Shown here one piece after another: positions 46,662 through 50,237 of a DNA stretch of 64,000 nt. Position numbers and translations under genes: made by a program. Below the pieces are notes generated by a model. It was not told where the DNA came from. It saw only the letters and a list, made by a program, of their open reading frames with translations, and did not search any database. This DNA comes from an uncultured Clostridia bacterium (GTDB taxonomy: Bacteria; Bacillota; Clostridia; Christensenellales; CAG-138). Within the stretch, counting starts at the first letter, position 1. Every line of letters begins with the position of its first letter. The stretch covers positions 277,696 to 341,695 of the forward strand of contig CAMKES010000001.1 of the NCBI GenBank assembly GCA_946411635.1, read 5' to 3'.

Positions 46662-47893
46662 ACATTGAAAAACTGATCGCAGAAGCCGAGGAAAGATGCA
46701 GCAGCGCTTTCCGGGCGGCAGAAAAGACCTCTTTGACGTGCACGGAGCGTGTTCTGAATGCATTTGCCGAACACCGTATTTCCGCCCGTCATTTTGCGCC
46801 TACGGAAGGATACGGCTATGATGACGCGGGCAGAGACGCGCTTGACGCGGTGTTTGCCGACGCCTTGTTTGCGGAGGATGCGCTCGTTCGACCGCAGATC
46901 GCAAACGGAACGCACGCGATCTTTCTTGCGCTGTCCGGCGTTACGGAGCCGGGGGATACGATCCTTTCTCTGACCGGATCGCCGTATGATACGCTTGAAA
47001 GCGCGGTCGGAATCGCCGGATCCATCCCGAATTCGCTCTCCCGGTTCGGGATCCGGTTTGAATCCGTTCCCATGAAAAACGACAGGATCGATTTTTCAAC
47101 GGCAGGGGATAGGATCCGGAACGATCCTTCCGTCAAGATGATCTATCTGCAGCGTTCGCGCGGGTATTCCTGGCGGAAAGCGCTTACGATCGATCTGATC
47201 CGTGAAGCGATCGAGTATGTGAAATCGATTCGTTCCGACCTGATCGTCTTTGTGGACAATTGTTACGGCGAGTTTACGGAGGAAACGGAACCGACCGCCG
47301 TCGGCGCCGATCTGATCGCCGGCAGCCTGATTAAAAACTGCGGCGGCGGCATCGCGCCCACGGGCGGCTATATTGCCGGGCGGAAAGATCTGATCGAGGC
47401 TGTTTCGTTTCGTCAGACGGTTCCCGGATGCGGTAAGGAGATCGGATCGTACGCCGCCTCATACCGCCCGTTTTATCAGGGTTTGTTTCTTGCGCCGCAT
47501 ACGGTGCTGCAGTGCTTGAAAAGCGCGATCCTGTTTTCCGCTTTGTTTGAATCGCTCGGATATGAAACGATGCCGCATGCGAACGATAAGCGCAGCGACA
47601 TCATTCAGTCGATTCGATTTGAACGGGAGGAACAGATGGTCGCATTCATGCGATCCGTTCAGGCGGCGGCGCCGGTCGACAGCTTTGTTGTTCCCGAGGC
47701 CTGGGATATGCCCGGTTATTCCGATCCGGTCATAATGGCGGCCGGTACGTTTGTGCAGGGCGCTACGACGGAACTGAGCGCCGACGGACCGATCCGCAGG
47801 CCGTATACCGCCTATCTGCAGGGCGCGCTCACCTATGAACATGCGGTGATCGCAGCGAAAAAAGTGCTTTCTGCGTTAATAACTGCGCATTAG
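46658..47893 (+). CDS. methionine gamma-lyase family PLP protein (YnbB-like)
   Basis: The 411-aa PLP-fold enzyme is of the family annotated as aluminium-resistance or methionine gamma-lyase-like protein, here as in Bacillus lying near miaA and lexA-region genes. Segments include RPQIANGTHAIFLALSG, DNCYGEFTEETEP, and ADLIAGSLIKNCGGGIAPTGGYIAG containing the PLP Lys. The reaction is not established. The start overlaps miaA (ATGA). The 3' end overlaps the convergent lexA gene by 18 bases. Confidence 0.88.
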   Translation: MNIEKLIAEAEERCSSAFRAAEKTSLTCTERVLNAFAEHRISARHFAPTEGYGYDDAGRDALDAVFADALFAEDALVRPQIANGTHAIFLALSGVTEPGDTILSLTGSPYDTLESAVGIAGSIPNSLSRFGIRFESVPMKNDRIDFSTAGDRIRNDPSVKMIYLQRSRGYSWRKALTIDLIREAIEYVKSIRSDLIVFVDNCYGEFTEETEPTAVGADLIAGSLIKNCGGGIAPTGGYIAGRKDLIEAVSFRQTVPGCGKEIGSYAASYRPFYQGLFLAPHTVLQCLKSAILFSALFESLGYETMPHANDKRSDIIQSIRFEREEQMVAFMRSVQAAAPVDSFVVPEAWDMPGYSDPVIMAAGTFVQGATTELSADGPIRRPYTAYLQGALTYEHAVIAAKKVLSALITAH

Positions 47894-48487
47894 TCCCGTC
47901 ACACACCCGAGGATCTCAACCCGGTCGGGTGAAAACTGCATTGCGGAAAAAGCTTCGTTCTCCGGACGAAGCTCTATTTTTTGGTCGGAGATCCTGAAAA
48001 ACCGTTTTACGGTAACGTCTTCTCCGTCGATCCTTGCAACGACGATATCCCCGTCGTCCGGAAAAACGTCCTGTTCGACGACGATGACGTCTTGATCCCG
48101 GATCCCCGCGTTTTTCATGCTTTCGCCGGATACGCGCAGCATAAAAGCGTCGAAGCCTGAACGGCGAAGCAGGAGGGAGGGGACAGGGAAGTCGTCCTCT
48201 CTGTTTTCCAGAGCGGTGATCGGAATGCCTGCCGCGACTTTTCCGAGCAGAGGAACGTTTTCCTGACCCGATTTATGCGCGGATACGCTGTATGCACGTT
48301 TTTTGTTCGGATCGGAACGGATCAAACCTTCGTCGCGCAGCTGTTTCAGATATCGATGAACGGAGGCGGGGGATGCAAGTCCTACGGCGTCGCAGATTTC
48401 ACGTACCGTGGGCGGAAATCCGTTCCGCTCCTGCGCTTCGCGAATAAACAGATAGATTCGATCTTTGGCTTCGTTCAGCTTTTTCAT
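47876..48487 (-). CDS. lexA: LexA repressor
   Basis: LexA represses SOS genes and self-cleaves when RecA is activated. I use the ATG at 48487 (MKKLNEAKDRIY) preceded by GAGGTGA; the upstream ATG at 48520 lies within the promoter. The 203-aa protein has the winged-helix domain (FPPTVREICDAVGLASPASVHRYLKQL) and cleavage site VAAGIP around residue 85. The catalytic Ser lies in VSGESMKNAGI and the catalytic Lys in VARIDGEDVTVKRF. It is autoregulated, judging by the SOS box over its -35. It ends inside ynbB on the opposite strand. Confidence 0.97.
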   Translation of the reverse strand: MKKLNEAKDRIYLFIREAQERNGFPPTVREICDAVGLASPASVHRYLKQLRDEGLIRSDPNKKRAYSVSAHKSGQENVPLLGKVAAGIPITALENREDDFPVPSLLLRRSGFDAFMLRVSGESMKNAGIRDQDVIVVEQDVFPDDGDIVVARIDGEDVTVKRFFRISDQKIELRPENEAFSAMQFSPDRVEILGCVTGLMRSY

Positions 48488-48505: not shown

Positions 48506-48534
48506 ATCATAACACAACATTTCCCAAAATGCAA
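48506..48534 (-). promoter_or_regulatory. lexA promoter
   Basis: On the minus strand TTGCAT, 17 bases, TATGAT. The SOS box overlaps the -35. Confidence 0.85.
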
Positions 48535-48545
48535 ACGTTTGTTCG
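48532..48545. promoter_or_regulatory. LexA operator (SOS box) at lexA
   Basis: The minus strand reads CGAACAAACGTTTG, an exact match to CGAACRNRYGTTYG, overlapping the first bases of the lexA -35. It lies in the 60-base gap between the recombinase stop and lexA. Confidence 0.9.
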
Positions 48546-48547
48546 AA

Positions 48548-49645
48548 TCATTGTTCCGGTGACGATTCCGAATCGAGTGCGGTCGGATCGTCTTCTCTGA
48601 GCTTGATATATTTTGCGGCGAGCCGGCTTCGGTCTTCCTTCATGGCGGCATAGTGTTTTCTTGTCGTATTGACGTCTTTATGTCCAAGAACGTCAGCAAC
48701 GAGATAAATATCTCCGCTTTCCTGATACAGCATCGTACCGTACGTGCTTCTCAGTTTATGCGGCGTGATTTTTTTCAGAGGCGTCGCAACGCTTGCATAT
48801 TTTTTGACAAGGTTTTCAACCGCGCGGGGCGTGATGCGTCTTCTTTGCATGGAAAGAAAAAAGGCGGATTCGTGACCGCTGACTGGAATGATTGTTTTGC
48901 GTTCTTCAAGGTATTCCGAAAGAGCGGAGGCTACCTCCGGACCGAAAGCAAGCGTCTCCTGGTTTCCGCCTTTTCTGGTTACGACAAACTGATTTTTGGA
49001 GAAGTCGATATCGTTCAGATCGATTCCGACAAGCTCCGAAATACGGATTCCGGTTCCGAGAAACAGGGAGAGGATCGCAACGTCGCGGAGCTTTGTCGAA
49101 TTGTGGAAGCGCCGCTGCGTTTTCGTCATGCCGCTGCCGCTTTCCGTTGCGTCCAGCAGATCGGCGACTTCATTGGCTTCCAGACGGATAATGGTCTTTT
49201 CGTGCAGCTTGGGCGTATCCACAAGCGCGGCGCAGTTGGTTTTGATGAGCGATCTCTTATACAGATATTTGAATAACGAACGGATTGCCGACAGCTTTCT
49301 TGCTTTTGCACGTTCACTGTTTTCGATGATTTTTTCCGATTCGGACGATTTGCTCCGGTACAGAGAAATATAATCCAGATACAGTTCGATATCGAGGGAG
49401 GAGAGACCGTCAACGTCGGCAAGCGTGAATTGATCGGAAGAACGTCCGGAGAATCGGTCGATCTGTCCGCTGCACAGGAACCGGAAAAAGCTTCTCAGAT
49501 CAACCGCATATCCGTACCGGGTAAGGATCGATGTGGTCGGTTCGATTGCACGGAAATACAGACTGCAGAAATCCGGCAGTTCCTTCAGCACGGAACGAAG
49601 CCGGTCGTTATAATTTTGCTTTTTTTGCAATTGGTATTCGCTCAT
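48548..49645 (-). CDS. tyrosine recombinase/integrase (XerC/D-like)
   Basis: The 365-aa tyrosine recombinase starts at the ATG at 49645 (MSEYQLQKK) with CGGAG upstream; the longer track ORF reads through its promoter. The N-terminal core-binding domain contains IEPTTSILTRYGYAVDLRSFFRFL. The catalytic domain has GTGIRISELVGIDL (Arg I), VTRKGGN (Lys), HKLRSTYGT (His-x-x-Arg), VLGHKDVNTTRKHYA (His and nucleophile Tyr). I recognise it as a type found next to lexA in many Clostridia, so it is probably core rather than mobile. Its target site is unknown. A 16-bp inverted repeat covers its promoter. Confidence 0.9.
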   Translation of the reverse strand: MSEYQLQKKQNYNDRLRSVLKELPDFCSLYFRAIEPTTSILTRYGYAVDLRSFFRFLCSGQIDRFSGRSSDQFTLADVDGLSSLDIELYLDYISLYRSKSSESEKIIENSERAKARKLSAIRSLFKYLYKRSLIKTNCAALVDTPKLHEKTIIRLEANEVADLLDATESGSGMTKTQRRFHNSTKLRDVAILSLFLGTGIRISELVGIDLNDIDFSKNQFVVTRKGGNQETLAFGPEVASALSEYLEERKTIIPVSGHESAFFLSMQRRRITPRAVENLVKKYASVATPLKKITPHKLRSTYGTMLYQESGDIYLVADVLGHKDVNTTRKHYAAMKEDRSRLAAKYIKLREDDPTALDSESSPEQ

Positions 49646-49691
49646 TTTGAACTCCGAAAACCGAATAGGGCATGTGTTCTTTGTTACTGAA

Positions 49692-49720
49692 ATTTTAACA
49701 CAACTATTCGTTAAAGACAA
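49692..49720 (-). promoter_or_regulatory. candidate promoter of the tyrosine recombinase
   Basis: On the minus strand TTGTCT, 17 bases, TAAAAT. The -35 lies in the centre of the large inverted repeat. Confidence 0.65.
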
Positions 49721-49737
49721 GTTTAACGAATAGTTGT
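49700..49737. repeat. perfect 16-bp inverted repeat with 6-bp centre
   Basis: ACAACTATTCGTTAAA, GACAAG, TTTAACGAATAGTTGT. It lies between the rnhA stop and the recombinase, with no T run on either side, so it is not a normal terminator. The geometry (arms around a 6-bp spacer) is that of a tyrosine-recombinase core site, and it also overlaps the recombinase -35. Confidence 0.85.
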
Positions 49738-49766
49738 TACAGAAAATTCAAATATTTGAGGGGTTT

Positions 49767-50237
49767 TTATGCTTGCTCGGCGGTTTCGGGCTTTTCTTTG
49801 TTCTGTAACGATTTGATCGCTTCGCGTGCAAGTTTGTCGCACTGGTTGTTTTCAACGTTATCGGAATGACCTTTTACTTTATGAAACCGAACGATGTGCG
49901 TTACGCAAAGCGCATCAAGCTGTTCCCAAAGATCTCGGTTTTCCACTTCATGACGGTTTGCGGTTTTCCATCCGTTGCGCCGCCATTGGTCGAGCCAGCC
50001 TTTTTCAAATGCATTGCAAAGATACGCGCTGTCCGTGTACAGATTCACGCTGCAGCTTCGCTTGAGCATTCGGAGCGCTTCGATCGCTGCCGTCAGTTCC
50101 ATGCGGTTGTTGGTTGTTTCCGCAGCGCAGCCGTTTGCTTCTTTTCTGTGAGCGCCGGAGATCAGAACGCAGCCCCAGCCGCCCGGACCCGGATTCCTGG
50201 AACATGCGCCGTCTGTATATATGATTACCTGATCCAT
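49767..50237 (-). CDS. rnhA: ribonuclease HI
   Basis: RNase HI cleaves RNA in RNA-DNA hybrids. The 156-aa protein has the catalytic residues in YTDGACSRNPGPGGWG (Asp), MELTAAIEAL (Glu), YTDSAYLCN (Asp) and VKGHSDNVENNQCDKLA (His and Asp), all present. No N-terminal hybrid-binding domain is attached. It lies six bases after the SPOR protein gene on the same strand. Confidence 0.96.
   Translation of the reverse strand: MDQVIIYTDGACSRNPGPGGWGCVLISGAHRKEANGCAAETTNNRMELTAAIEALRMLKRSCSVNLYTDSAYLCNAFEKGWLDQWRRNGWKTANRHEVENRDLWEQLDALCVTHIVRFHKVKGHSDNVENNQCDKLAREAIKSLQNKEKPETAEQA

Follow-up and report, generated by a model that had tools for sequence, protein, structure and literature searches.

Xer chromosome-dimer resolution systems are known in a two-enzyme form, XerCD/dif of E. 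coli and B. subtilis, and in several forms that rely on a single tyrosine recombinase. In the XerS/difSL system of streptococci and lactococci (PMC5357621) one recombinase of about 360 aa acts on a terminus-located site that lies directly upstream of its own gene. The XerH/difH system of Helicobacter and Campylobacter (PMC2731167, PMC5241119) likewise uses a single recombinase, with a site that is often found near the gene, and the XerL/dif system of Legionellales (PMC9765430) combines a single recombinase with a terminus-located site that is exploited by a mobile element. Here we describe a locus in an uncultured Clostridia bacterium of the order Christensenellales, in which a perfect inverted repeat next to an XerS-related recombinase gene is, with high confidence as far as sequence can tell, the dif site of a further single-recombinase Xer system. 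The relevant features of the window, by which we mean the whole 64,000-nucleotide stretch analysed, are the following:

47876..48487, minus strand: lexA, the downstream neighbour (NCBIfam TIGR00498, 186.4 bits, above cut-off)
48548..49645, minus strand: XerS-related tyrosine recombinase of 365 aa, start codon ATG at 49645-49643 (Pfam Phage_integrase and NCBIfam XerS match)
49692..49720, minus strand: predicted recombinase promoter, with a -35 element TTGTCT (49720-49715) overlapping the spacer of the repeat and a -10 element TAAAAT (49697-49692) at 17-nt spacing
49700..49737, no strand: inverted repeat and candidate dif site, with perfect 16-bp arms and a 6-bp spacer, kept in relatives and located at the GC-skew change point
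49705-49732: conserved 28-bp core of the inverted repeat, TATTCGTTAAA-GACAAG-TTTAACGAATA
49716..49721: asymmetric 6-bp spacer, GACAAG on the plus and CTTGTC on the minus strand, the presumed strand-exchange region with putative cleavage positions
49767..50237, minus strand: rnhA (ribonuclease HI), the upstream neighbour (NCBIfam PRK00203, 206.7 bits, above cut-off)

The left arm of the repeat is ACAACTATTCGTTAAA (49700-49715) and the right arm (49722-49737) is its exact reverse complement, with 100% complementarity. The perfect 16-bp inverted repeat with a six-base gap reported in an earlier note on this DNA is therefore real as a sequence feature, and its likeness to the core site of a tyrosine recombinase (16-bp arms, 6-bp spacer) is borne out. 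An arrangement of this kind inside a gap of about 120 bp is far beyond chance expectation, and its conservation throughout the order, detailed below, confirms that the repeat is real. The site is intergenic and has 29% G+C within a contig of 57% G+C. With up to 3 mismatches allowed, no further copy of the arm was found in the window, and the genome-wide search for additional copies that had been proposed in the earlier note, run on the 2.06-Mb assembly with up to 2 mismatches allowed, returned none, making the site single-copy. Chromosomal dif sites are in general single, intergenic, A+T-rich palindromes with an asymmetric centre of 6-8 bp, and the repeat is of this kind. The additional CGAATA hexamers that had been pointed out in the leader fared less well: one CGAATA/TATTCG is present, but such a hexamer occurs in just 2 of the 17 members of the genus and is thus not conserved. 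Between the recombinase stop codon and lexA the minus strand carries CGAACAAACGTTTGC (48531-48545), which resembles the Gram-positive LexA box and which we take to be, probably, the autoregulatory site of lexA.

Among curated families the recombinase matches XerS best (PRK05084, 201.8 bits, below the cut-off of 267), with XerC and XerD ranking behind. Its catalytic residues R201, K225, H296, R299 and Y332 are invariant across the order, and H322 is retained in at least 90%. In a tree with XerS, XerC/XerD and one integrase as references the clostridial recombinases form a group of their own (94/98), separate from XerS (99/92) and from XerC/XerD (100/99); as the branches of the tree are long, XerS is no more than a possible sister group. 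A match to the recombinase is present in 37 of the 41 relatives searched, the window genome counted, and most of these have one strong full-length orthologue. A search of the 41 genomes of the order for XerD returned nothing above the curated cut-off; the best XerD-like matches reach 244-280 bits, in G028 and G032, and the other tyrosine recombinases of the window genome are weak, integrase-sized matches. Some families outside the order possess both the XerS-related recombinase and a true XerD, and in these the role of the former may differ. The window genome also encodes an FtsK-gamma domain (103 bits). Skewed octamers point toward the site, but they resemble ribosome-binding sites and track gene orientation; with octamers so confounded, no specific FtsK-orienting motif could be demonstrated.

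The position of the repeat on the chromosome is the behaviour of a dif site and not that of an operator. The best single GC-skew change point of the 421,655-bp window contig falls at 327,563, 149 bp from the centre of the site, with the cumulative skew maximum 8 kb away from it. The distance between change point and site is 179 bp in G006, 297 bp in G026, 441 bp in G032 and 750 bp in G025; in the single-contig genomes G171, G103 and G076 it is 1.1, 1.3 and 2.6 kb respectively, and dnaA lies 0.47-0.48 of the circle away from the site. The skew switch thus coincides with the site in all 8 genomes examined (0.15-2.6 kb); in Proteobacteria, dif and the skew maximum were found to be a median of 7.3 kb apart (PMC2731167). 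The case of G026 is discriminating, as 54 kb separate gene and site there, and the skew nevertheless switches at the site.

The palindrome was found upstream of most strong recombinase orthologues in the order. By pattern search 34 of 41 relatives have the site, usually singly, as do 20 of the 21 good-quality genomes, extra matches with two mismatches away from the gene being at the level of a reversed control and not counted as sites. The same search gave no match in 7 of the 41, most of them incomplete drafts, and G036 has an orthologue for which a convincing site was not found. Conservation of the repeat in close relatives, on which the earlier note had let its reading depend, is accordingly observed across the order. 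The arms are conserved, and the orientation of the spacer and its distance from the gene are variable. Read relative to the gene, the spacer is CTTGTC in the majority of the genus as well as in several families, is inverted to GACAAG in L027, L031 and L033, and differs in others of the order; the site lies between 17 bp and about 640 bp from the gene, with 1.3 kb in G039 and the 54 kb of G026 beyond this range.

Farther afield, 43 of 80 named loci, from uncultured Clostridia, Christensenella, Butyrivibrio and other Lachnospiraceae, show the site within flanks of up to 3 kb; in these 43 sites CG and AAA/TTT were fixed by the search pattern, and the flanking positions are strongly conserved. In the other 37 the site may lie elsewhere or take another form. 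A lexA-like gene is found near the recombinase orthologue in 53 of the 80. At the level of the class (196 genomes) the site occurs in 15 of 32 genomes with a strong orthologue (E below 1e-85) versus 4 of 164 others (p 1.4e-10, a value inflated by kinship, and with site and gene on different contigs in 2 of the 15), and the remaining 17 of the 32 gave no pattern match with 1 mismatch allowed. As about half of the named loci show no site within 3 kb and these 17 genomes no pattern match, the motif or its place varies. A looser pattern, applied to orthologue-bearing genomes without a site, yielded one convincing case (G076), the rest being chance-like matches. As a positive control, the identical procedure recovers difSL upstream of a streptococcal-type xerS (L245).

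Two further sequences deserve mention. A second site-like sequence with 1 mismatch and a different spacer is found in G028 (C119:32511-32536), 3.2 kb from the dif site, and may represent the distal end of a small insertion, or a chance match. In G095 a perfect palindrome, TATAATTGCGCATA-ATATATAA-TATGCGCAATTATA, lies at about 114,131 of C1 (in L289), some 1.5 kb upstream of the orthologue; the skew switch (116,780) is right beside the gene, and the orthologue of this family is without the usual motif. This palindrome is a possible different form of dif.

The predicted minus-strand promoter that the earlier note had drawn over the repeat is present in the sequence as TTGTCT-17-TAAAAT, the sole promoter-like pair that a consensus scan found in the rnhA-recombinase gap, and the placement of the -35 element inside the spacer is kept in nearly all members of the genus, though conserved only there. 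This arrangement speaks for the repeat being mainly an operator, at which the recombinase or a separate regulator would repress the recombinase promoter. Beyond the genus, however, the spacer is inverted, or the promoter lies past the site (the families with an inverted spacer have a promoter-like pair downstream of it, as judged by eye), or 0.3-54 kb separate site and gene, with the site still at the skew switch, and an operator offers no reason for a terminus position. We therefore consider this reading very improbable, and autorepression, as it had been suggested, finds no support as the principal role; that the bound recombinase would repress its own promoter in the genus as a side effect is plausible from the sequence. 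A role as the transcription terminator of rnhA has in its favour that the transcript would form a stable hairpin (-23.6 kcal/mol, z -4.1), but no T run follows the stem, a terminator scan did not call it, in several relatives a distinct G+C-rich hairpin precedes the site by 70-80 bp, and the unpaired spacer is conserved. We agree with the earlier note that this is no ordinary terminator, and give the terminator reading practically no credence. Scarcely any probability likewise attaches to an invertible or excisable switch, in which recombination between copies of the arm would alter the expression of neighbouring genes: the repeat does have the geometry of a tyrosine-recombinase core site, but a local switch requires two sites, and the genome, like normally each relative, has one. 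With one site per chromosome the expression-altering rearrangement envisaged earlier is not possible as a local inversion or excision, and the expected reaction is one between sister chromosomes.

The arms of the repeat are not confined to chromosomes. An exact scan with CTATTCGYWAAA-N6-TTTWRCGAATAG retrieved 95 viral contigs (L295-L389), many of them metagenomic, versus none for a scrambled palindrome of equal form. The contigs represent 75 different sequence contexts; a simple ORF test places 81 of the sites between genes, and 50 different 6-bp spacers occur, few of which match a host spacer that we have seen. Some sites adjoin terminase genes, and a scan of 83 loci for tyrosine recombinases gave matches in only 2. 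Among named phages, a BLAST search with the site found a single good match, MT835477. Furthermore, the 243-kb plasmid of Roseburia sp. 831b, a Lachnospiraceae strain (NZ_CP135163.1; L393:3000-3029), carries TTATTCGTTAAACCTGACTTTAGCGAATAG between genes and near a tyrosine recombinase gene, which may make it a second replicon served by the host Xer system. The sharing of arms with the 95 viral contigs and the plasmid could be taken to mean that the chromosomal repeat serves a mobile element or phage as an attachment site and is retained solely for that purpose. Against this, the host order conserves the recombinase gene in single copy, chromosomes that are empty of such elements have the site at the terminus, and the viral copies are better accounted for by mimicry of the host dif, as known from other Xer systems (PMC5357621, PMC9765430); we regard a mere attachment site as a highly improbable explanation. 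A phage packaging signal is a rival explanation of the viral sites, but it leaves their identity with the host arms unexplained. Both phage integration via the host Xer enzyme and dimer resolution of plasmid-like replicons fit these sites, and the viral copies suggest that phages exploit this Xer system. On balance we lean slightly towards a wider picture, in which a large part of Clostridia has its own single-recombinase Xer system and diverse gut and rumen phages, together with some large plasmids, carry spacer-diversified mimics of dif, used either for integrase-less entry at dif via the host enzyme or for their own dimer resolution.

Returning to the chromosomal repeat as a dif site, each genome typically has one conserved site at its terminus and a co-occurring recombinase with intact catalytic residues, and the window genome encodes an FtsK-gamma domain. 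The proposal of the earlier note that the repeat is the recombinase's own site is very probably correct. Based on the anatomy of the site and on XerS, XerH and XerL (PMC5357621, PMC5241119, PMC9765430), we propose that two copies of the adjacent recombinase would bind the two near-identical arms, the near-perfect symmetry of which fits one protein on both. Homologous recombination that fuses sister chromosomes would generate a dimer with two copies of dif; these would synapse at the closing septum, probably under the control of FtsK, and strand exchange within the 6-bp spacer, whose asymmetry would set the direction of exchange, would then resolve the dimer.

This one-enzyme Xer system appears to be widespread in Clostridia, and we found no description of the repeat site in the open literature, most subscription papers being beyond the reach of our search. 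With this locus a large group of gut Clostridia, including Christensenella, Butyrivibrio and many uncultured lineages, gains a probable dif site and recombinase, and the site allows the replication terminus to be placed with an accuracy of a few kb, in draft genomes too. The origins of one-enzyme Xer systems, still an open question, can now be considered with one more lineage, and numerous phages come into view as possible exploiters of the system.

Of the known systems, XerS/difSL shares with this one a single recombinase of similar size, a site directly upstream of its gene, the terminus location and the best curated family match. Other sites of the order align in register with difSL at 17-19 of 31 positions (shuffle p 0.001-0.03), and the window site taken by itself shows no significant similarity to the 31-bp difSL (p 0.22). 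The central region of difSL is reported to be 11 bp long, in contrast to the 6-bp spacer and the near-perfectly symmetric arms found here. Because the recombinase scores below the XerS cut-off and falls in a separate clade, we do not class the system as XerS/difSL. XerS above the curated cut-off does occur in the phylum, in seven genomes of larger size (L246-L252; 4.6-7.3 Mb), and the 600 bp upstream of these genes contain no obvious difSL. XerH/difH has in common the single recombinase, the 6-bp central region and a site often close to the gene, but the recombinase gives only 47.6 bits to XerH versus 106 to XerD in a structure database, the arms of difH are asymmetric unlike those of the window site, and the latter has no significant sequence similarity to difH. 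The XerL/dif system resembles ours in its single recombinase, long uninterrupted inverted-repeat arms, terminus location and exploitation by a mobile element; in L. pneumophila, however, gene and site are more than 400 kb apart, whereas here they are usually adjacent. With XerCD/dif the system shares the terminus location, the catalytic residues and the FtsK-gamma domain in the genome, but it has one recombinase instead of two, XerD above the cut-off is absent from the 41 genomes of the order, and the arms, as the earlier note had remarked, differ from those of the canonical XerCD dif. Taken together, these comparisons identify a putative single-recombinase Xer/dif system with a recombinase clade and a site of its own, which would work like the known ones.
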